Positions 1,085 through 16,587 of a DNA stretch of 36,111 nucleotides are shown in pieces; position 1 is the stretch's first letter; the number at the start of each line of letters is the position of its first letter. Below the pieces are notes generated by a model. That model did not search any database, had not been told where the DNA came from, and saw only the letters and a program-made list of their open reading frames with translations. A program made the position numbers and the translations under genes. Source of the DNA: Methanospirillum stamsii (GTDB taxonomy: Archaea > Halobacteriota > Methanomicrobia > Methanomicrobiales > Methanospirillaceae); the NCBI RefSeq assembly GCF_003173335.1, contig NZ_QGMZ01000031.1, positions 1 through 36,111 of the forward strand. The letters run 5' to 3'.

Positions 1085-4000
1085 CCATGCTCACCCCGGT
1101 TACAAGAGTGGTTTTATCGGGCCGGATAGTAACACCCAGAATCCTGTCAGCAGCATCTATCATCGGTTTTCGAAGAGAGATATTGATAAATTGCGATGTA
1201 TGTGACAATTCACGAATCATTTCAGCGATCCTTACTACATTTGATCCGTCAAGATTCATATCAACTTCATCAAACGCATAAAATGGAGCAGGAATTGCTT
1301 TCTGAATCGAAAAAATAAACGCCAGAGTTGTCAGTGATTTTTCACCACCGGAAAGGGCAGTCAGATGATGAACTTTTTTGTCCCTTGGCTGAACAGCAAA
1401 AGATAATCCACCAGTAAAGGGATCCTCAGGATTTTCAAGTTTCAGCTCACCGGTGCCCATGGTAAGACGTGAAAAAATTTCCCGGAAATTTTTATCGATT
1501 TCCTGAAATGCTTCATTAAAAGCCTCAAATTTTTTCCTGGAAAAAAATTCAATTCGATCTTTTATATCAGACATCTCCCGTTCCAAAACCTCAATACGGG
1601 ACATCCGTTCAGAAACCACCGCGTGAACCTGCTCATACTCTTCAATTGCACGCATGTTCACATCCCCGAGTTTACCAATAGAAACGGAAGTAGTCTCAAT
1701 TCGTTCATCGATCTCCTGTTCAGTAAGAGAAGTGACAGAGTCTCCGGCTTCCTCTGAAAGACTTTTAATATCTGCATTAATCAGGAGTAATTTTTCATCC
1801 ATGCTTTCAATTTTCAGCAGGATCCGATCCATTTTACCAACAAATTCACGGACCTCTGCATCAAATGCATCAGCTTTTTGCGAAAGAGATGCCCGTTCGG
1901 TCCGGAGCCCTTCTATCTCCTGTGAAAATTGTGCGACGGTCTGCTCAGCATCTTTTATTTCGTTTTCTTTACTACCTATTTCCGATTTCCAGGCCTCTAT
2001 TTCATCATCATACCGTTTGATCTGCTCACGGACACGTTCCATCTGCTGGCGTTCTTCATCCACCTTCTTTTGTGCAAAGGAGAGTTCCAACCGGATTTCA
2101 GCAATTTCCTGCTCCTTATTCCGAAGTCGTCTTTGAACTTCCTCTATCTGTCTTTGCGACTCCTCACGCTGCTCATAAAGAAGAGGTATCCCGGTATCAG
2201 AAAGACGCACAGAAATTTCTTCTACCTGTTTCTGTAGTCTTGAAATTTCCTCATTTTTCTCTTCAATCGCCTTTTCTGCCGCAGCAAGTTCATCAACTCC
2301 ACAGGGTTCTCCTATCCCGGCGTTTGAACGTTGAGTCTTGAGCGAATCCATCTCTGATATGAGAGAAGTCACTGCAGATTCGGCAGATTCAATCTGACCT
2401 TTTGCACGAACGATAGCACTTTCAAGTTCTAGTCTTCTTTTTTGTGTCTCGTCCCGTTCACCCGTTTGGACAGATAATTCTCCTGCAAGAATCTGTTCCT
2501 CGGTTGTTATCATTGAGAGACGGGCGGAGAGCTCCTTCACCTCATCAACTGATGATGAACCAAATCCTCCGGATTCTTTTCTCACACTGCCACCAGTCAT
2601 TGAACCGGAAGGCTCAACCAGTGACCCGTCAGGAGTAACCATCCTGAATGTGCCAATTCTCTTCCTGGCATGTTCAAGTGAATCCACAACCAGAGTAGAG
2701 CCAAGCACCACTCGAAATGCCACATCAAATTTCGGATCATAATCCAGAAGGGAAATTGCAAATCCGATGATGTCATTGCCTGATGGAAGAGGAGGAAGTG
2801 GTTTTGACCTGATTTTATTGAGGGGAAGAAATGTTACCCGGCCAAGTTTATTTTCCTGTAGATACCGGATCGCCTCAGCAGCAATCTGGTCATTCTCCAC
2901 GACAACAAAATGGATCTTTCCACCAGCAGCAATATTCATGGCCGTTGCATGTTCAGGTCTGCAGGAAGCGAGATCTCCAATGGTCCCACATACTCCCTCC
3001 ATCCCCATAACTGCCTCCATAGCACGGCTATACCGACCCTGGACCTGCTGTTGTGCCTCTTTTTTCCCAATTTCGATCTTTAGATCACGAATCTGTCTAA
3101 GTATCCGTTCGTGTTCTTCTCGTTTGGTATAAAGAGCAGTGTCATATGTTCCCATCCGCCGGTCATACTCGCGCTTTTCTTCATTCAACCGGTCGAATGC
3201 ATTCTTAAGGGCAGCAACATCCTCATTTTTTATGACCAGTTCTTTTTCAATAGCGATAATCCTGGAAGTGAGCCGATCAGATTCGGCATTGCGCATCCGG
3301 GAACGTTCAATAAGTATATCCTGCTGGTGGAGAAGTTCTCCCCGTAAATCACGAGCATCATGGATTTTCATCCGCAATGATTCCAACTGGGTCTCATCTT
3401 CTTCAAGACCTTTTGTTTCCCGTGTTATTGTCTGTGAAATCCGATCAAACTCTTTTTGTACTACTGAAGTAGTCATAGAAAGATTGGTCCTGTCTATCAT
3501 CAGACTGCGCAATTCAGAGTCTCTTGCTCCGGCACGTTCCTCCTGTCTTTTTACACCAGCGAATAACTCAGATAATCTTTTGTTAGCCTCATCGCGGTCC
3601 CTTCCTGCCCTGTCAATAGATCGATGAAGACTATCAATAGCCGCCTTTGCCTCAGCAATCCGGGAAACAAGAGCCATATATTCACTACCGGTTTTCGCGG
3701 TAATTTTCTGGTCGATGGCCCCGATTTCTTCTTTTACAAAATCCCGTTCATGCGATTTCCAGGAAATATCTCCTTCTATCTGGGTAACCTGACTTTTTTC
3801 TTCTGATATCGCCTGAATAAGTGCATCCTGATCTTTTTTCTTGGTCGCAAGACGTGCAGCACTGAGACACCGGGTGAGATTTTTCAATTCGTCCTGTAAT
3901 GTCCGGTATTGAACAGCCTGTTCTTTCTGCTTCTCAAGCTGTTTCAGACGGAGAGTAAGTTCCTCAAGGTGAACAGATTCTTCCGAAATCCGGTCTTTTA

Positions 4001-4517
4001 CCTGGGAAAGTTCCCCAAGAGCCAAATCTTTTTTCGTATCAAACTCTGCAACACCAGCTATCTCATCTATTATCTTCCGGCGCTCCGTATCACTCATTTC
4101 GATGATTCGGTTGATATCACCCTGCATGACAACATTGTAACCATGAGGAACAATACCATGGCCGGCAAGAAAATCCAGCAGCTCTCCCTGGCGACAGGAA
4201 CGCCCGTTCAGGTAAAGATAATTGTAATAGGTATTTTCAGTTCTTTTTATTCGACGTTTGATTATTGTGCCATCTGAAAAGGTAATTTCAACTTCTGCAA
4301 TATTCCGGTCAGAATTTAGATTCAGAAGATCAGTCAGTCTCTCAGCACGCAGATGGCGGGATGAAGAAAGAGCCAGTGCAAAAAGGATACAATCAATGAT
4401 ATTGCTTTTCCCGGATCCATTTGGTCCGGAAATTATGGTGAAACCAGGTAAAAATGGGATTTTTGTTTTTCTCCCAAATGATTTGAAATTATCAATCTCA
4501 AGTTGTGTTATATGCAA
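1074..4517 (-). CDS. smc: SMC chromosome segregation ATPase
   Basis: This is a full-length SMC protein of about 1147 residues that compacts and segregates DNA by ATP-driven looping. Walker A is GPNGSGKS near residue 31. Long coiled coils flank a hinge around residues 490-640 (VCGTIGDLASCRPEH ... GSMTGGSVRKESGG). Near the C-terminus come the ABC signature LSGGEKSLTTLAF and the Walker B region PAPFYAFDEVDMNLDGSN. The frame can be extended to a TTG at 4535, but the family begins close to LHITQLEIDNFKSF. The TTG at 4517 has a GGTG ribosome binding site 9-12 bases upstream, so I chose it; the start is non-ATG either way. It follows the small coiled-coil gene at 4556-4999 and overlaps scpA. Confidence 0.95.
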   Translation of the reverse strand: MHITQLEIDNFKSFGRKTKIPFLPGFTIISGPNGSGKSNIIDCILFALALSSSRHLRAERLTDLLNLNSDRNIAEVEITFSDGTIIKRRIKRTENTYYNYLYLNGRSCRQGELLDFLAGHGIVPHGYNVVMQGDINRIIEMSDTERRKIIDEIAGVAEFDTKKDLALGELSQVKDRISEESVHLEELTLRLKQLEKQKEQAVQYRTLQDELKNLTRCLSAARLATKKKDQDALIQAISEEKSQVTQIEGDISWKSHERDFVKEEIGAIDQKITAKTGSEYMALVSRIAEAKAAIDSLHRSIDRAGRDRDEANKRLSELFAGVKRQEERAGARDSELRSLMIDRTNLSMTTSVVQKEFDRISQTITRETKGLEEDETQLESLRMKIHDARDLRGELLHQQDILIERSRMRNAESDRLTSRIIAIEKELVIKNEDVAALKNAFDRLNEEKREYDRRMGTYDTALYTKREEHERILRQIRDLKIEIGKKEAQQQVQGRYSRAMEAVMGMEGVCGTIGDLASCRPEHATAMNIAAGGKIHFVVVENDQIAAEAIRYLQENKLGRVTFLPLNKIRSKPLPPLPSGNDIIGFAISLLDYDPKFDVAFRVVLGSTLVVDSLEHARKRIGTFRMVTPDGSLVEPSGSMTGGSVRKESGGFGSSSVDEVKELSARLSMITTEEQILAGELSVQTGERDETQKRRLELESAIVRAKGQIESAESAVTSLISEMDSLKTQRSNAGIGEPCGVDELAAAEKAIEEKNEEISRLQKQVEEISVRLSDTGIPLLYEQREESQRQIEEVQRRLRNKEQEIAEIRLELSFAQKKVDEERQQMERVREQIKRYDDEIEAWKSEIGSKENEIKDAEQTVAQFSQEIEGLRTERASLSQKADAFDAEVREFVGKMDRILLKIESMDEKLLLINADIKSLSEEAGDSVTSLTEQEIDERIETTSVSIGKLGDVNMRAIEEYEQVHAVVSERMSRIEVLEREMSDIKDRIEFFSRKKFEAFNEAFQEIDKNFREIFSRLTMGTGELKLENPEDPFTGGLSFAVQPRDKKVHHLTALSGGEKSLTTLAFIFSIQKAIPAPFYAFDEVDMNLDGSNVVRIAEMIRELSHTSQFINISLRKPMIDAADRILGVTIRPDKTTLVTGVSMDDS

Positions 4518-4555
4518 ACCCTTACACCAGAGCAAGGATGGGAACGATATTCAGG

Positions 4556-4999
4556 TTACGAACCTTCTGCAGGATCCTTATCTTCTGCAATAATGAGATC
4601 ATTCTGACCTGGTCTGCCCTGATTATCTTTTGCTTTCATCCTGGCAGTACGGGCAGAGGCGACAATAATGTCATCACCCATATCTTTTTCGGGCAGTAAT
4701 GTCCCGTCTGGCTGCATCTTCAGAGTTACCTTGCCTTTTACCGGATGTGGCTGGACTTTTTCAGGATCACTCTTAATCTCGGTAATCTCACGCTCAACTT
4801 TCCCTCTTGAGATTGGCGGAGCTACAGCCTGAATTACCGGTGGGGGCCGTTGTTCCTTCTTTAGTTTCATAACAACAGCCTTCATGTCCAGCATTTCATC
4901 GGTAAGACCCTTGATAAGGGCATCCAGATCTGCTAATTTCCGCTCGAGCAGACGGACCCGTTCATCAAGATTATTCGTCCCATATCCTTCGTCACTCAT
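4556..4999 (-). CDS. Small coiled-coil protein upstream of smc, function unknown
   Basis: A 147-residue protein of no recognised family. Residues 10-55 (NNLDERVRLLERKLADLDALIKG and onward to MKKL-type repeats) show a heptad pattern typical of a coiled coil. The rest is basic, proline-rich and probably disordered, with a shorter charged C-terminal part. There is no signal peptide or membrane segment. The frame extends upstream to 5116, but the ATG at 4999 is preceded by AGGT at a suitable distance and lies about 34 bases after a predicted transcription start, so I used it. It sits first in the operon, 38 bases before smc, which suggests a role linked to SMC. That role is inferred from position only. 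Confidence 0.7.
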   Translation of the reverse strand: MSDEGYGTNNLDERVRLLERKLADLDALIKGLTDEMLDMKAVVMKLKKEQRPPPVIQAVAPPISRGKVEREITEIKSDPEKVQPHPVKGKVTLKMQPDGTLLPEKDMGDDIIVASARTARMKAKDNQGRPGQNDLIIAEDKDPAEGS

Positions 5000-5054
5000 G
5001 AATAACAGACCTGTTTGTCCGGTTCTACTATCTTTGTAACTATTTGATACTAAT

Positions 5055-9363: not shown

Positions 9364-11202
9364 ATGGCACCAACCAAATATATTTCTGCTGCCACTTTTC
9401 TGGTTATTTTAGTGGTAATTATCTGTGCGATTACGCAGGCGGGATCTGCTATACCTGAAAAAAAGAATCAGGAAACAGGATATCCGTCAGAAACAGGTTT
9501 AACAATCCAGTCATCTGCTGCACCTCCATCGGAGAAAGCCCTACAGGTTTCTACAGAATATGCACCTGATCGCCTGATTGTCAGGTATAAAACCGATCAA
9601 TTACGAACGGAATCGGCAATGATGTCTGTTCAGTCTGTAACCAATTCAAAAGCCGGAACCTCAGTCGTCAGTGATTTTCAATCGGAAGGTATCCCGGGTA
9701 TGCAGATAGTTCAGGTCACAAGTAATTCACTTGAAGGAGCACTGAAATCATACGAAGACAATCCTGATGTTTTGTATGTCGAACCTGATTACAAGATCTC
9801 ATTAAGTCCTGTTGAAAAGACAGGGAAAACACAGGAAATCTCAGAATTTGGAATTACCAGCGCATCGTACCCGAATGATCCCGGATATCAGTATTTATGG
9901 GGACTCGATAACACCGGACAGGCTCCGTTTTATGGAAAGTCCGATGCAGATATTGATGCACCTGAAGCCTGGAGTAGTACCACCGGTTCTTCATCGGTGA
10001 TAGTAGCAGTAGTGGACACCGGCGTTGATTACACCCATCCGGACCTTGCAGCAAACATCTGGCAAAATTCAAGAGAGACCATCAATGGTATTGATGATGA
10101 TGGAAACGGGTATATCGACGATATCAGAGGATGGAACTTCAATGCCAAAACCAATGATCCAAAAGACGATAATGGCCATGGGACTCATTGTGCGGGGACC
10201 ATTGCTGCAGTAGGAAACAATGGTGTTGGTGTTGCCGGAGTTGGATGGAATGTTAAGATAATGCCCCTCAAATTCCTCAACGCCGCAGGATCAGGGTATG
10301 TATCCGATGCAATCTCTGCAATCTTATATGCGAACAAAATGGGAGCCACAGTCATCTCAAATTCCTGGTCCGGAACAGGATACACCCAGTCTCTAAAAGA
10401 TGCTATAGATGCTTCTTCAGCAGTTGTTGTGTGTGCTGCAGGTAACAGTGGCAAAAATTCTGATGTGAACCCGCAATATCCGGCAGCGTTCCAAAGTGCC
10501 AATATCATTTCAGTAGCTGCGACTGACTATAACGATAATCTGGCTTCATTCTCTAATTATGGATCCGGATCAGTCGACCTTGCAGCACCAGGAGTCAGCA
10601 TATACAGTACAACTTCTTCTGGCAGCTACCGGTATTTGAGCGGTACATCCATGGCAACGCCACATGTATCAGGAGTTGCAGCCTTATTAAAATCAAAGAG
10701 TCCTTCACTTACCGGATCAGCGATAAAAAGTAAAATTCTGAGTAATGTAGACATTGTTTCATCATTATCCGGAAAAGTCGCAACTAGTGGCAGATTGAAT
10801 GCTGCAAAGGCCCTGGGCGCATCAACACCTACAATAGCTCCAACAGCAACTCCGACCGCGACCCCGACTTCCTATCCTACAAAGACACCAACAATTACTC
10901 CGATACCAACCAGGACAATAGCGCCAACACCTACGACAACTCAGACTCCAACAACTAAACTGGTTTCTGCATTCTACGCTTCACCGACATACGGAAAAGC
11001 TCCCTTACGTGTCCAGTTTATCGATCAGTCATACGGAAGTCCGACCAGATGGACATGGTCATTTGGAGACGGTGGATTTTCCTATCAGAAAAACCCATAT
11101 CACACCTATCTTAAAAAAGGAACATATTCCATTCGTTTAACAACGTACAGGGGTGGATTGTCAAGTTCACTCTATAAACAGCGGCTAATAACCGTAATTT
11201 AA
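9364..11202 (+). CDS. Secreted subtilisin-like serine protease (S8) with PKD domain
   Basis: A 612-residue exported protease. Residues 1-30 are a signal peptide (basic start, then a hydrophobic core FLVILVVIICAIT). A propeptide with APDRLIVRYKTDQ and YVEPDY follows. The S8 catalytic domain spans about residues 170-485, with the triad D218 (VVDTGVDYTHPDL), H272 (NGHGTHCAGT) and S429 (SGTSMATPHVSG), plus N361 in AAGNSG as oxyanion residue. DDDGNGYIDD near residue 245 is a likely calcium site. A Thr/Pro-rich linker at 487-531 resembles a glycosylated stalk. A PKD domain (WTWSFGDGG) closes the protein. No C-terminal membrane anchor is visible, so it is secreted or bound to the surface through PKD. 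Probable roles are maturation or turnover of envelope proteins, or peptide supply. Confidence 0.95.
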   Translation: MAPTKYISAATFLVILVVIICAITQAGSAIPEKKNQETGYPSETGLTIQSSAAPPSEKALQVSTEYAPDRLIVRYKTDQLRTESAMMSVQSVTNSKAGTSVVSDFQSEGIPGMQIVQVTSNSLEGALKSYEDNPDVLYVEPDYKISLSPVEKTGKTQEISEFGITSASYPNDPGYQYLWGLDNTGQAPFYGKSDADIDAPEAWSSTTGSSSVIVAVVDTGVDYTHPDLAANIWQNSRETINGIDDDGNGYIDDIRGWNFNAKTNDPKDDNGHGTHCAGTIAAVGNNGVGVAGVGWNVKIMPLKFLNAAGSGYVSDAISAILYANKMGATVISNSWSGTGYTQSLKDAIDASSAVVVCAAGNSGKNSDVNPQYPAAFQSANIISVAATDYNDNLASFSNYGSGSVDLAAPGVSIYSTTSSGSYRYLSGTSMATPHVSGVAALLKSKSPSLTGSAIKSKILSNVDIVSSLSGKVATSGRLNAAKALGASTPTIAPTATPTATPTSYPTKTPTITPIPTRTIAPTPTTTQTPTTKLVSAFYASPTYGKAPLRVQFIDQSYGSPTRWTWSFGDGGFSYQKNPYHTYLKKGTYSIRLTTYRGGLSSSLYKQRLITVI

Positions 11203-11217: not shown

Positions 11218-11793
11218 TTATATTTGAATTGAAGAGAGAGCATCCTTAATTTTAGGACGCCAAGAGTCCAAGGCCCGCTGATAGATCTCCGCAGCTTTCT
11301 GATGATCAGCGTCATCGGTATTCTTCTCAATACGGTCAAGAGAAAGCCTGGCAGTATCAAGAATCCAGCAATCCACAACAGACTTATCTACCGCTGTAAT
11401 TGATTCTGCCCGGACAGACACCAGATTTCTTCCATCCGGTGACTGGAAGACTCCGGGTTTGCCAATAACAACAACATGAGCCGGAGATTCAATCGTAGAG
11501 ATCTGATGAAGGGCTTCTGGCTGATAACTGCCTGCACTAACAAAAAAAGTACCAGTCGGATCCATCACCCGGATTTGATAGAAAACTGCTTCTCCTTCTG
11601 ATTTTTTCTTTTCTGTCAGTGTTCCGGCAATAAAAATACGGTTGCACCGTTCTCCGGTCGGAAGAAGGATAAAAGTCGGGCTTTTTTCATCGGTTCCTTC
11701 ACGAAAATGGTGAAAGGCTTCCCGTAACTCTGCTGCAAAAACCCTTTTTGCAGGTTCACGCTCATACCGACGGAATGCTGCATTATCACTCAT
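11218..11793 (-). CDS. RPA-associated protein (Rpa3-like OB-fold subunit)
   Basis: A 191-residue protein of the archaeal RPA-associated family (COG3390 type). It begins MSDNAAFRRYEREPAKRVFAAELREA, the conserved family start. An OB-fold core follows (RIFIAGTLTEKKKSEGEAVFYQIRVMDPTGTFFVSAGSYQPEA), and a helical C-terminal domain covers about residues 130-190. It partners archaeal RPA in binding single-stranded DNA during replication and repair. An in-frame upstream start exists at 11811, but the ATG at 11793 matches the family and overlaps the RPA stop in ATGAGTGA, so translation is coupled to the upstream RPA gene. Confidence 0.85.
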   Translation of the reverse strand: MSDNAAFRRYEREPAKRVFAAELREAFHHFREGTDEKSPTFILLPTGERCNRIFIAGTLTEKKKSEGEAVFYQIRVMDPTGTFFVSAGSYQPEALHQISTIESPAHVVVIGKPGVFQSPDGRNLVSVRAESITAVDKSVVDCWILDTARLSLDRIEKNTDDADHQKAAEIYQRALDSWRPKIKDALSSIQI

Positions 11794-13615
11794 GAGACTC
11801 TCCCTCCACACGGTTAATCAGTTCAGCCAGAAGACCGGAATCAAACTTTTGATACTCACAATTATATGCAAAAAACCGGTTGTCAAGACTGCGTCCCCTG
11901 CAGACAAGATATCTCCCCAGAATCTGTTCATTCATATGATAAAACACGGTTTCAAGACCAAGAGGATCATTTTCAGCCATCTCCTGGGCTGAAATGAGGT
12001 TCAGTCCGGTAAGTTCTTCGACACCTTCTCTCGAAATAATGGTATCATACGTTTTAACTCCGGTGTCAAGCCACCCTTTAACCCTGAGATCATACACATA
12101 ATTGGGTTGTATTTCATGCACCGGACAATAATTCTGCCTGGACAGAACTCTTCCGCATCCTTCAACCGGACAGCGTTTGATAAGCCCAGATCCCGGTGAA
12201 AGGTGAACAAATGCACCACATACCTCTTCATTGGAGGTTCTCACCTGCATCGTTACATTTTCTTCAGGAATACAGGTTGCCCCGTTTAATGTCACCGAAA
12301 GACGGGAGTTAAACTCATCAACCGAAGCATAATAGATGCTATAAACCGTATCCGGATCCAATCTGACAGAATTATCATCCTTCCAGATGGTGAACCGGAT
12401 GGTGCCGGATTCATCGCCCAGAATCCCTGCCTGGAGCAGACGATCAGACGTACTTTCATATTCCTGAACCATCTTAACCCGGAGACAGACAATACCCGGG
12501 CCTGCCTGAGTAATTGGGATAATATTTGGTCTGATGCTGGTATCTTCTTCAAGCGGCTCAGCTGATCCAGGGGGTATCTGCATACTTAAAGTCCCCCGGT
12601 ATCTGTCCACGACTGCGCCGTTTATTGTATACCACTGGTTTTCAACCAAGGGTTCTGCACCGGGATTATTCCGGATAATGAACCTTATCGCACCGGAATC
12701 ATCAGCAATTACTCCCCTCTGCAGTATTTGTTCTGAAGGTTGTTTCTCTATCGTTACAACTTTCCCATGAACCAAGGCTACACCCGGCTTTAACTGCCCG
12801 ACGGGTGTTTTTTCTATTTGAGGTAACTCATCTTTTGATACCGGAGTAATTTTCGTTCCGGCATGAACTTTTATTGAGACCTGCCCGTTAAACTCGTCTG
12901 ATTCAACAAGCTCAAGATGGTACCAGTGACCCTGTTCAAGTAAAGGTGCATTCGCTGAAGCCCAGACCGTAAAGCGTATTGTTCCGGAATTATCAGCAAG
13001 GATCCCGGACTGAGCAATCGAAGGAGACCTTGGCGGAAAAAGTGTTGTTACTTCACCTTCAACTGCTATCCATCGTTTTGGTTTTATTTCTGATACTGCA
13101 GTAATAACGGTTTCCGGAACAGATTCAGGAGAGAGTTCTGTTATCGTAGTTCCGGAATGGACTTTCAGGCTTACCTGGCCATTATATTCGTCAGCCACTG
13201 CTGATTCCAGCCGGTACCATTTTCCCTGTTCCATAACCGGAGCATTCGCTTTCGCCCAGACCGTAAAACGCATTGTCCCGCTTTGATCAGAGATTACCCC
13301 GCTCTGGGCAACTGAAGGAGAACGTGACGGAATGAGTGTTACAATCTGTCCTTCAACGGTTACCCACTGCTCTGCCTGAATCTCTGAAATAAGAGTTACT
13401 GCATCTGCGTCTTGTCTGGGTGGACTGGCAGAAGGAATTTCCATTCCAAATTGCCGGGCATAATCACCTATTATTGACCGTTCCGCTTCTGCGGGGGGAA
13501 CAGAAAACTCTTCCACAAAACGGTTGATCTTCTCCTCTAATTTAGCCCGGTCAATTATATGACCTTCTGCTGCAAATTTTTCGGAGATCCTGTCTGCAAT
13601 TTCTTTAAGTTCCAT
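11786..13615 (-). CDS. Replication factor A (RPA), four OB-folds plus zinc finger
   Basis: The 609-residue single-stranded DNA binding protein has a helical N-terminal region (1-65) and then four OB-folds near residues 70-165, 166-265, 268-360 and 362-455. Each contains the motif G-[VI]-[IL]-[SA]-D-x-S-G-[TA]-[MI]-R-F. A zinc finger follows at about 470-505 with CPVEGCGRVLSRQNYCPVH, and a C-terminal domain closes the protein. OB1 and OB2 are very similar over their whole length and look like a recent duplication. RPA coats single-stranded DNA in replication, recombination and repair. The start at 13615 has GGAGATGA directly before it and a TATA box about 37 bases upstream. The partner gene overlaps the 3' end. 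Confidence 0.93.
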   Translation of the reverse strand: MELKEIADRISEKFAAEGHIIDRAKLEEKINRFVEEFSVPPAEAERSIIGDYARQFGMEIPSASPPRQDADAVTLISEIQAEQWVTVEGQIVTLIPSRSPSVAQSGVISDQSGTMRFTVWAKANAPVMEQGKWYRLESAVADEYNGQVSLKVHSGTTITELSPESVPETVITAVSEIKPKRWIAVEGEVTTLFPPRSPSIAQSGILADNSGTIRFTVWASANAPLLEQGHWYHLELVESDEFNGQVSIKVHAGTKITPVSKDELPQIEKTPVGQLKPGVALVHGKVVTIEKQPSEQILQRGVIADDSGAIRFIIRNNPGAEPLVENQWYTINGAVVDRYRGTLSMQIPPGSAEPLEEDTSIRPNIIPITQAGPGIVCLRVKMVQEYESTSDRLLQAGILGDESGTIRFTIWKDDNSVRLDPDTVYSIYYASVDEFNSRLSVTLNGATCIPEENVTMQVRTSNEEVCGAFVHLSPGSGLIKRCPVEGCGRVLSRQNYCPVHEIQPNYVYDLRVKGWLDTGVKTYDTIISREGVEELTGLNLISAQEMAENDPLGLETVFYHMNEQILGRYLVCRGRSLDNRFFAYNCEYQKFDSGLLAELINRVEGESHE

Positions 13616-13704: not shown

Positions 13705-14607
13705 TCAGGATTTATTTAAAAAAACTGCTTTCAATTCAGAAAGAGACGCTTCCGGATTTCTCAAGAGGTGCCGGGTCACCTGCGGAGAATGATTGAGGAT
13801 ACATCTGGTACATCCCCAGATTGGTTTTTTTCCGGGTTTTTCTATCCAGTCACCAAGACTGGTATCCCCACAGGGATATAAGGGACAATAACAAAAATCA
13901 CAGCACTGACCAGGAAAATGACAGGGGTAGTACGGACAATTATTTTTCTCCCATAACATCCAGTGATTGCCTCCGATACTACTCCAGATAAAAAAGGAGG
14001 GTTTTGTATGTCCATCACTGATTATAGGCTTTTTAAGGGCTTCCTGAACCCCGAAAAAAACCGCTTCATGGATCTTTTTACCGACATCTGTTGCACTACC
14101 AGCGTACCGAACTGACCCCGGGTCTTCTGACGCAACAATTACCGCATCAGTAAGAGTTCCGGCAAAAGAGTGCCCGGACTCCCGAAGCCCCAGAACCTTC
14201 GCTTCAGTTGCAGTAATTACCGCATCAACCAGACCCTGGTCAGAAAAATCCCTCGTAACAACAATGATATTTATTGTCCCGGCCTCCGGGTTTTTATTAT
14301 CAGATAAGGAGGATCCCGGGTCAGGATGAGTGATCCCAGCGGTGATGAAGACGGTAACCGGATCAATAGAGAGAATACATAAATTATTCATCGACACCGC
14401 GGTGAGAAGACATACAGAATCCTTCTTTAAGAGGCCTAATGACATAACCAGATTTTCAATAAGGAAATCCGGACTTTCGGAAAATCCCGGTTTCACCTGG
14501 TGATTTAAAAGAGTTGTACAATTCCGGATACCACCATCATGACCGGAACTTAAAGCCCGAAATGATCCCCTGATTACCAGGGAAGAAGATTTGAGGTAAT
14601 ACCTCAT
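13705..14607 (-). CDS. cbiZ: CbiZ adenosylcobinamide amidohydrolase fused to a cysteine-rich domain
   Basis: A two-domain protein of 300 residues. Residues 1-195 match CbiZ, which removes the aminopropanol from adenosylcobinamide so that salvaged corrinoids re-enter B12 synthesis as adenosylcobyrate. Evidence includes the segment TINIIVVTRDFSDQGLVDAV, then TEAKVLGLRESG, SFAGTLTDAVIVAS and VGKKIHEAVFFGVQEAL. Residues 220-290 carry CPYYPCHFPGQCCDFCYCPLY, then WGCTRC, a cysteine-rich small domain likely to bind metal. The ATG overlaps the stop of the NrdD-like gene (ATGA), so translation is coupled. The fusion partner may load, sense or protect the corrinoid or a metal; its role is not known to me. 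Confidence 0.85.
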   Translation of the reverse strand: MRYYLKSSSLVIRGSFRALSSGHDGGIRNCTTLLNHQVKPGFSESPDFLIENLVMSLGLLKKDSVCLLTAVSMNNLCILSIDPVTVFITAGITHPDPGSSLSDNKNPEAGTINIIVVTRDFSDQGLVDAVITATEAKVLGLRESGHSFAGTLTDAVIVASEDPGSVRYAGSATDVGKKIHEAVFFGVQEALKKPIISDGHTKPSFFIWSSIGGNHWMLWEKNNCPYYPCHFPGQCCDFCYCPLYPCGDTSLGDWIEKPGKKPIWGCTRCILNHSPQVTRHLLRNPEASLSELKAVFLNKS

Positions 14608-14972
14608 GCCACACTATAACGCTGACGATCTTTTAATTCCTGTTGTTTCCCTGCATTCCATCCGGAAACATCCTGAAGATATCCCGTAACACGGCTAATC
14701 TGGACAACATCATGACAACCGCACTCCGGGCATACCGGCTCGCCACACAATGGGCAGTATTCAATAGTCCCGGTAATCTCATGAGAACAATCGCAATTAT
14801 CAAGCGGGCACATGATTTCAGGATTCACATCGCCACAGACCGGGCATGGACTCTCATCAACGATACGGTGACAGGTATGACATTTATATCTTCGTTCATT
14901 TTCAGGAATTTCATCTTTGCAGGTGTATTTATCTGCAATCCTGAGCTGTTCAGCAGTCCAGTTCATACTCAT
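14604..14972 (-). CDS. Stand-alone NrdD C-terminal (glycyl-radical/zinc) domain protein
   Basis: A 122-residue protein with two cysteine clusters: C31/C34/C43/C46, then C55, C60, C62, C73, C76, C81, C84 and C86. They are followed by ISRVTGYLQDVSGWNAGKQQ and ELKDRQRY. The latter is the C-terminal signature of anaerobic class III ribonucleotide reductase, with the glycyl-radical glycine at G97 and the preceding zinc-binding CxxC pairs. The large catalytic barrel is absent and no frameshifted remnant lies upstream, so this is a small independent protein rather than a truncated gene. A TATA box 27 bases before the ATG suggests a leaderless mRNA. Roles to consider are a spare radical domain (as GrcA provides for pyruvate formate-lyase) or a zinc-only regulatory protein. 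Confidence 0.75.
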   Translation of the reverse strand: MSMNWTAEQLRIADKYTCKDEIPENERRYKCHTCHRIVDESPCPVCGDVNPEIMCPLDNCDCSHEITGTIEYCPLCGEPVCPECGCHDVVQISRVTGYLQDVSGWNAGKQQELKDRQRYSVA

Positions 14973-15022: not shown

Positions 15023-15664
15023 TCAAATACCAGTCCTGAAACATGAGTACTGGCGTGCTGCTGCTGCCGGATCAGATGACTCATAAATTGCCCTTCCAAC
15101 AATGATTCCATCCACAATACCGGCGATTGCATCCGGATCCCCGCCCTGGGCACCAACTCCGGGTGAGAGGATCTTTTTATTCCCGATAAGACTGCGCAAA
15201 ACTGCGGTCCTTTCAGGCCGTGTAGCTGGTGCAATAATTCCATCTGCACCCGCTTCACAGACAAGCTCTGCAATCCGTTCAGCAACCCCGCCATGGAAGA
15301 AATCAACTGCACCGGGATGACTCATCTCCGTCACCACATAGCACTCTCCCATGTTTTCATGAGCGGTCTCCACACATGCCCGGACAGAATCATGTCCGAC
15401 AAATCCATGACAAATGATAGCAGAAAACCCGCGGGAAAAGACCTCCTCTGCAATAAGGCGTGTGGTATTGGGAATATCTGCAACCTTAAAATCAGCGATC
15501 AGGGGTTTTTTGTATTCAGATAATATTTCTGCAATTCCAAGACCCTCAGCAAGTACCAGCGGATACCCGATTTTTACTTTGTCAATATAAGGCGCTGCCT
15601 TTTGAACAATTGAGACGGCCTTGTCTTTTTTCATGACATCGAGGGCGAGGATTATTTCAGTCAT
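15023..15664 (-). CDS. pyrF: Orotidine 5'-phosphate decarboxylase
   Basis: A 213-residue TIM-barrel enzyme making UMP from OMP. ILALDV (5-10) opens the barrel. The catalytic charged network is ADFKVADIPNT, with D58, K60 and D63. The phosphate-binding parts are LSPGVGAQGG and IIVGRAIY. The length matches archaeal PyrF. Its ATG overlaps the dys stop by four bases, so it is translated with dys. Confidence 0.95.
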   Translation of the reverse strand: MTEIILALDVMKKDKAVSIVQKAAPYIDKVKIGYPLVLAEGLGIAEILSEYKKPLIADFKVADIPNTTRLIAEEVFSRGFSAIICHGFVGHDSVRACVETAHENMGECYVVTEMSHPGAVDFFHGGVAERIAELVCEAGADGIIAPATRPERTAVLRSLIGNKKILSPGVGAQGGDPDAIAGIVDGIIVGRAIYESSDPAAAARQYSCFRTGI

Positions 15665-16587
15665 ACAATTCTCTCCAGTGCTGCAGAGATAATAAGAGGC
15701 AGGGTGATGGTTGCATCCCCATAGACGGTAACCGTCTTTGCATCCTCATCCACTTTACCCCATGACCTGGCTTCATCCAGGGTAGCTCCTGAAAGACCAC
15801 CGAGATCAGGTCGGTCACCGGTAAGCTGTACTGCATAAGTAAACCCTTTCGGAGTCATCAGCATACTCTGCAATATATAATTCTTCGGGACTCCCCCTCC
15901 GATGAGAAATGCTCCGGCAACTTCTGCTGAAAAACAGATGTCCATAATCCTGTTCATATCCGCGAATGCATCAACAACAATCTTGTGAGTCTGCCTGTAG
16001 AGCCAGAACTGCAGACCTATCATTGAATCCTGAACTGCCGGACAGAAGACAGGAATTTTGTTCCGGGCAGCAGTTGCAAGGATCCCGGTTTTTAAATGAG
16101 AACCAATGTGTTCTAAAAGTTCGGAAATTGAGAGAACTGAGCCATCAGGAATTTTTGAAAGGACATCCTGCATAAACTCTTCAAATTGAATAAAAGACTC
16201 ATTCGGAAGATAGACATCATATATACGGTTGATCTCATCATGCCTGAGTTCTACATCATTGCACTTTTCCGTGCCCCGGTAATGATGACACCCGATTGCC
16301 TCGATGACATCATGAGTGAGATTGGCACCGGTTGAGACGAGAGCATCAACATATCCTGCATCCATCAAATCTGAGATGATCCCTCCCATGCCTGCCGGAA
16401 CCATGGCACCAGCCAGTCCGAAAAAACGGGTCATATCTTTTCTTTCGAACATCGTACCGGTTATCTGCACAGCACGGGTCAGAGCCCCGCCATTATATGC
16501 GCCTGCCTGTTCCATCACCTGTATCAGGTTTTCAACCGTCATACCAGGTTTCAGATGCACCTGCTTTACCGGCACTTCACATTCCAT
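15661..16587 (-). CDS. dys: Deoxyhypusine synthase
   Basis: The 308-residue enzyme transfers the aminobutyl group of spermidine to a lysine of aIF5A, with NAD, the first step of hypusine formation. Motifs are FGLAGAMVPAGMGGII, STGANLTHD (NAD contacts), PVFCPAVQDSMIG, and DEARSWGKVDEDAKTVTVYGD with the catalytic lysine K278. The assigned ATG lies only ten bases downstream of a TATA-like ATTATAA (16593-16600). A GTG at residue 5 (16575) would fit a leaderless start better, so the exact start is uncertain by four residues. pyrF overlaps the 3' end; tiaS lies 47 bases upstream. Confidence 0.94.
   Translation of the reverse strand: MECEVPVKQVHLKPGMTVENLIQVMEQAGAYNGGALTRAVQITGTMFERKDMTRFFGLAGAMVPAGMGGIISDLMDAGYVDALVSTGANLTHDVIEAIGCHHYRGTEKCNDVELRHDEINRIYDVYLPNESFIQFEEFMQDVLSKIPDGSVLSISELLEHIGSHLKTGILATAARNKIPVFCPAVQDSMIGLQFWLYRQTHKIVVDAFADMNRIMDICFSAEVAGAFLIGGGVPKNYILQSMLMTPKGFTYAVQLTGDRPDLGGLSGATLDEARSWGKVDEDAKTVTVYGDATITLPLIISAALERIV

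Follow-up and report, generated by a model that had tools for sequence, protein, structure and literature searches.

We analyzed a window of 36,111 nucleotides of Methanospirillum stamsii DNA (contig NZ_QGMZ01000031.1, positions 1 to 36,111), in which the minus-strand open reading frame (ORF) 14604-14972 codes for a protein of 122 residues containing 13 cysteines. The initial annotation had read this protein as a stand-alone C-terminal domain of the class III ribonucleotide reductase (RNR) NrdD, with the RVTGY glycyl-radical signature and no catalytic barrel. Profile comparisons bore this out. The protein matched only the last 60 of the 562 positions of Pfam NRDD (503-562; E=1e-13; 51.3 bits, with a cut-off of 26.2 bits) and positions 526-581 of the 581 in the NCBIfam NrdD model TIGR02487. 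Since both matches cover only the C-terminal end of NrdD, the protein lacks the barrel. Gly97, the glycine of SRVTGY, aligns with the RITGY glycine in the structure of Prevotella copri NrdD (8p23). Judging from the sequence comparisons described below, this protein very probably serves as the radical subunit of a class III RNR that is obligately made of two parts, to which it would supply the glycyl-radical domain (GRD) in trans.

The ORF is not a chance reading frame, because its product is 69-90% identical across most of Methanomicrobiales and its median dN/dS is low (0.15 overall and 0.084 within the GRD). Gly97 and ten cysteines (C31, C34, C43, C46, C55, C62, C73, C76, C81, and C84) were invariant in 81 orthologues, so that no loss of the glycine was seen. 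Conservation within the protein was highest in the SRVTGY radical loop and in the C-terminal stretch WNxGKxxELKDR. The additional N-terminal cysteine cluster, C31-C46, which had been described as foreign to a normal NrdD tail, proved to be real and is absent from the fused archaeal NrdD tails. It forms a zinc-ribbon-like CxxC-x(6-16)-CxxC motif ahead of the GRD. In an AlphaFold model of the protein alone, this ribbon part had pLDDT values of 84-89. The positions of these elements are collected in Table 1.

To find the catalytic partner, we searched the M. stamsii genome (3.74 Mb, 99.9% complete) with the NRDD profile. Exactly two matches were obtained: the tail described above (503-562) and a barrel (1-513). 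The barrel is a 734-residue ORF on another contig (C78, locus L001; NRDD 1-513 of 562, E=1.7e-133). Its C-terminus reads ...GYFAFTRDLTVCLHQFSEW...SSIQV, followed by the stop codon, with no GRD downstream; as the two matches were the only ones in the genome, a hidden GRD, whether behind the barrel or in a different frame, was ruled out. Compared with its fused relatives, the barrel stops after the last strand (...GYFAFTRDLTV) and about 30 variable residues. This end coincides with the border between barrel and GRD in P. copri NrdD, in which the GRD comprises residues 676-739 (PMC11226230). The ISCYQCC and FCQDWDL segments are identical or nearly identical to those of fused archaeal NrdD, and by this comparison the ORF qualifies as a ten-stranded class III barrel with the predicted active-site and finger-loop cysteines; the chain has kept its N-terminal region as well. 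The GRD with an RVTGY-type glycine and a cysteine metal site resides on the separate protein; a GRD and a barrel on one polypeptide were found neither here nor in the listed genomes of the order. An 87-residue glutaredoxin-like NrdH is encoded directly before the barrel gene, and an NrdG2-type activase is encoded on contig C33 (TIGR02495, 153 bits, over the curated cut-off). Thus, the full NrdD and the NrdG that the initial annotation proposed to look for were found in part: NrdG is present, and NrdD lacks its own tail. No class I/II RNR (PF02867) was found in this genome, which ruled out that another RNR does the work in M. stamsii.

We then surveyed 232 Methanomicrobiales species, of which 135 were represented by near-complete genomes (at least 90% complete). 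All listed barrels of the order end at NRDD profile position 524 or before, and the tail was found as a stand-alone frame in 194 of the 232 species. NRDD was present in 123 of the 135 near-complete genomes, and 121 of these 123 also encoded the tail. Almost every genome with a tail had just one, which ruled out that it is a second copy. The 12 near-complete genomes without NRDD all belong to one genus (g25), Methanocorpusculum-like by its placement, if we infer its name correctly; outside this genus, NRDD was present in 123/123. None of the 25 g25 genomes had NRDD, and none had a convincing tail (G042 gave a marginal match, E=6.6e-4); hence, the genus that is negative for NrdD also lacks the small protein. 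The NrdG orthologue was likewise absent from all 25 (best matches of about 1e-4 to 1e-5, compared with 1e-50 or better in most other genomes), and 24 of the 25 encoded a PF02867 RNR. This pattern indicates that barrel, tail, and NrdG were lost together when another RNR was present. Conversely, 24 of the 135 near-complete genomes, including M. stamsii and a single-contig Methanospirillum (G198), had no PF02867 RNR, and the split enzyme must therefore supply their deoxynucleotides. Several split barrels of the order, in NrdD frames of 1170-1320 residues, are interrupted by inteins; the one that was checked (G048, L298:1087-5043) contains intein splicing and LAGLIDADG domains.

Outside Methanomicrobiales, NrdD of the same phylum is fused (NRDD 1-562). 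The split barrels are 65-72% identical to the fused NrdD of Methanosarcinia, and they form one clade in the tree (support 99/100). The fused gene is preceded by NrdH, which the split barrels have kept upstream, and is often followed by NrdG. In 24 of 31 split barrels inspected, serine or alanine has replaced the cysteine that comes first in the fused tail (TVC). Such decay would be expected if the detached tail carried a complete metal site by itself. When the phylum was searched with a profile, stand-alone GRDs of about 88-131 residues also came to light in some Methanosarcinia, beside an intact fused NrdD (L256-L266). These proteins lack the ribbon and are candidate spare parts of NrdD. One further such GRD, again accompanied by a fused NrdD (G285, L267:3917-4258), looks degenerate, with the serine before RVTGY changed and the WN motif lost. 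Another (G504, L265:4219-7098) overlaps the frame of a Prim-Pol-type primase gene and possibly belongs to an integrated mobile element. The ribbon was present in 81/81 Methanomicrobiales and 6/6 viral proteins and in 0/8 Methanosarcinia stand-alone GRDs; all obligate-split GRDs examined thus have it, and the spare-part GRDs do not. Because the ribbon follows obligate splitting in this way, the best inference is a docking role: it probably attaches the small subunit to the barrel, replacing the lost covalent link. In the GRD tree, all stand-alone GRDs (from Methanomicrobiales, viruses, and Methanosarcinia) grouped apart from all fused ones (support 96/86), and they have in common a compact CPxC-x4-CPxC-xxHxV arrangement. 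Built from 50 aligned columns, this tree resolves stand-alone from fused GRDs but not the relative timing of events in Methanosarcinia, viruses, and Methanomicrobiales. The most economical interpretation is that a GRD in free form, at first a spare part, predated the split and later became the sole GRD in Methanomicrobiales; alternatively, viruses may have spread it horizontally.

Viruses carry the gene as well. Five IMG/VR contigs (L274-L278) encode a GRD 53-60% identical to that of M. stamsii. The NRDD search found the tail only in each of the five records, which may be fragments, so that absence of the barrel is not proven. The contigs carry terminase, tail fibre, tape-measure, baseplate, or recombination/replication genes, and the neighbors of the GRD gene include terminase (L277), tail fibre genes (L278), and Sak4, SSB, Cas4-exonuclease, and helicase genes (L274). 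These viruses are head-tailed. A 135-kb viral contig (L309, IMGVR_UViG_3300044712_001062) encodes on one strand, in overlapping frames, a GRD (2349-2780), NrdH (2777-2998), and a tailless barrel (2992-5007) consisting of NRDD 1-513 and an ATP-cone. This gene arrangement is the clearest sign that the free GRD and the tailless barrel work together. Genes for S-adenosylmethionine decarboxylase and dCMP deaminase come after the cluster. The other viral NrdDs matched by the barrel query were fused, and the named phages searched yielded only fused NrdD or weak matches.

How could such an enzyme work? Activation of fused enzymes requires that the GRD flip out (PMC12662201), and oxygen-cleaved pyruvate formate-lyase (PFL) is restored in trans by YfiD (PMC8683613), which makes a GRD acting in trans chemically plausible. 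According to our model, NrdG, a radical-SAM enzyme, would generate the glycyl radical at Gly97 while the small subunit is either free or bound to the barrel. The glycine loop would then insert into the barrel beside the finger-loop cysteine of ISCYQCC, where a thiyl radical would be generated. Reduction of the ribonucleoside triphosphate would draw electrons from the NrdH-type glutaredoxin encoded before the barrel gene, and the active site would be re-reduced. What the sequences show is the gene content, the domain boundaries, the joint occurrence and loss of the parts, their conservation, and the viral gene cluster; assembly of the complex, installation of the radical, and docking are predicted.

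Some observations weigh against a two-part enzyme. In two near-complete draft genomes (G018 and G188), a barrel was found but no tail was detected, and the GRD and barrel genes were never adjacent in the cellular loci examined. Furthermore, the AlphaFold model of the lone tail has low confidence at the radical loop (pLDDT 40-49), and Foldseek with this model returned no relative at E<0.6. The loop would be expected to become ordered only inside the barrel.

The initial annotation had offered two roles for the protein, a spare radical domain or a split subunit. As a spare part, it would repair oxygen-cleaved NrdD as YfiD/GrcA does PFL. The logic and the size class are those of YfiD and Y06I (PMC8683613), and homologous stand-alone GRDs do coexist with intact fused NrdD in several Methanosarcinia. 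However, neither M. stamsii nor any of the listed genomes of the order encodes an NrdD with its own GRD, so there is nothing intact to repair, and the protein must be constitutive in the near-complete genomes without class I/II RNR. Repair as the primary role in M. stamsii is thereby refuted, and we leave the spare part only a slight chance as an explanation; its arrangement was seen only in some Methanosarcinia. The split subunit is favored instead by a sole NrdD without a tail, the presence of NrdG, and the lack of another RNR. A slighter chance still belongs to a zinc-ribbon regulator that re-uses the GRD fold and no longer carries a radical. Such a role would suit the extra ribbon and the location of the gene among pyrimidine, cobamide, and replication protein A (RPA) genes rather than with nrdD. 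It fits poorly with the fact that conservation peaks at the radical loop and the WNxGKxxELKDR stretch, it would leave the barrel without any GRD, and NrdG is kept with the barrel-tail pair and lost with it.

Two further explanations have a negligible probability. The inteins in some Methanomicrobiales barrels raise the idea that a split intein or trans-splicing, for example, joins the two halves back into a single chain. Neither the 734-residue barrel nor the 122-residue tail of M. stamsii contains an intein segment, however; the barrel ends in its short variable stretch, and the N-terminus of the tail is a conserved zinc ribbon and not an intein half. A sequencing or assembly artefact, or a pseudogenised NrdD, is a general possibility with draft genomes. 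Against it, single-contig genomes such as G198, G202, G052, and G106 have the split, more than 190 species share its boundary and the order of the genes, and the gene is under purifying selection; this order-wide conservation refutes it.

If the protein is a radical subunit, a spare-part GRD may have arisen for NrdD repair in the ancestor of Methanomicrobiales and Methanosarcinia and have become an obligate, exchangeable subunit after NrdD lost its own GRD. Viruses carrying the small subunit, or the whole split set, would then provide fresh radical carriers for the host catalytic chain and raise the output of deoxynucleoside triphosphates (dNTPs), and the glycyl radical would be a dosable, replaceable protein cofactor. 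We propose this scenario tentatively, with somewhat less than even confidence.

At the cellular locus, the GRD gene is probably cotranscribed with the PyrF and CbiZ genes, because it starts 50 nt after PyrF and overlaps the CbiZ gene by 4 nt. The order deoxyhypusine synthase (DHS)-PyrF-GRD-CbiZ-RPA is kept across Methanomicrobiales (the nearest genes in 95-97 of 100 loci) and in deeper families. A CbiZ-like gene also lies downstream of the barrel gene (L001, about 3-1121); the two neighborhoods are otherwise unrelated. Elsewhere in the window, 9364-11202 holds a subtilisin-like serine protease sequence with, by eye, a C-terminal PKD-like stretch, near the RPA genes at 11218-13615.

Table 1. 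Features of the GRD gene and its neighbors in the window
Feature	Position	Strand	Evidence
Stand-alone NrdD GRD protein, proposed radical subunit of split class III RNR	14604..14972	-	Pfam NRDD 503-562, E=1e-13; orthologue in 121/123 NrdD-bearing Methanomicrobiales genomes at least 90% complete
Codon of Gly97 (GGA), glycine of SRVTGY, proposed radical site	14682..14684	-	Aligned with RITGY glycine of PDB 8p23; invariant in 81 orthologues
Compact double knuckle C73-x2-C76-x4-C81-x2-C84, directly before radical loop, probable metal site of GRD	14721..14756	-	Cysteines invariant; compact spacing in all stand-alone GRDs, absent from fused ones
Zinc-ribbon-like cluster C31-x2-C34-x8-C43-x2-C46, proposed docking module	14835..14882	-	81/81 Methanomicrobiales, 6/6 viral, 0/8 Methanosarcinia stand-alone GRDs
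Downstream gene, CbiZ adenosylcobinamide amidohydrolase with Cys-rich domain; 4-nt overlap with GRD gene (ATGA)	13705..14607	-	Pfam CbiZ E=4.8e-37, zf-like E=1.1e-26; in 96/100 GRD loci
Upstream gene, PyrF (orotidine-5'-phosphate decarboxylase), 50 nt before GRD start	15023..15664	-	NCBIfam PRK13813 over cut-off; in 97/100 GRD loci
DHS, start of conserved order	15661..16587	-	NCBIfam PRK02301 over cut-off; in 95/100 loci

In the accessible sources, all class III RNRs described have radical and active site on one chain, from which a two-protein form differs. Split class II RNRs have been described, and the class III GRD is placed at the C-terminus (PMC9669993). A split class III RNR was not described in any source that we searched; most subscription papers lay outside the search, and prior notice there is possible. 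The main text of a survey of archaeal gene fission (PMC11237513) does not contain NrdD. Only the spare parts of PFL have been validated, and it was suggested that they perhaps exist for other glycyl radical enzymes (PMC8683613). Our results bear on this suggestion and point to a possible route from spare part to subunit. They also identify a small virus-borne gene that could act on the dNTP supply of the host. As the order has cultivable members and the two-protein form is sometimes the only RNR detected, several questions can be tested directly: whether the GRD can be activated when free, how it docks, how often it is exchanged, and whether oxygen-damaged radical domains are replaced.

The class III RNR of Methanosarcina barkeri is reportedly of the archaeal NrdH-linked type. 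The M. stamsii enzyme resembles this type in its catalytic chain, its finger-loop cysteines, the NrdH upstream, and the NrdG in the genome. It differs in that a distant gene encodes the GRD as a protein of its own, with the compact cysteine arrangement and the added ribbon, and in that the catalytic chain has no GRD. GrcA/YfiD and Y06I of phage T4, the spare GRDs of PFL, are likewise small free GRDs that act in trans on the barrel of a glycyl radical enzyme and can be virus-borne (PMC8683613); the viral contigs with a GRD only parallel Y06I. Like them, the 122-residue protein is homologous to the C-terminus of its target enzyme. In contrast, it belongs to NrdD and not PFL, and no intact GRD-bearing target coexists with it in M. 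stamsii or the listed Methanomicrobiales, so that as the sole GRD it would be a permanent subunit; the GrcA/YfiD-type arrangement of a free GRD with an intact target is that of some Methanosarcinia homologues. Split class II RNR (NrdJa/NrdJb) likewise consists of two chains, one catalytic and one small, the latter with a C-terminal zinc-finger domain (PMC9669993), but class II needs no protein radical, whereas the part separated in M. stamsii would be the radical carrier. Finally, class I RNR also places radical carrier and catalytic chain on different proteins; its beta chain, however, is a ferritin-like metal protein acting by long-range transfer, whereas the M. stamsii pair would rely on a glycyl radical in direct contact.
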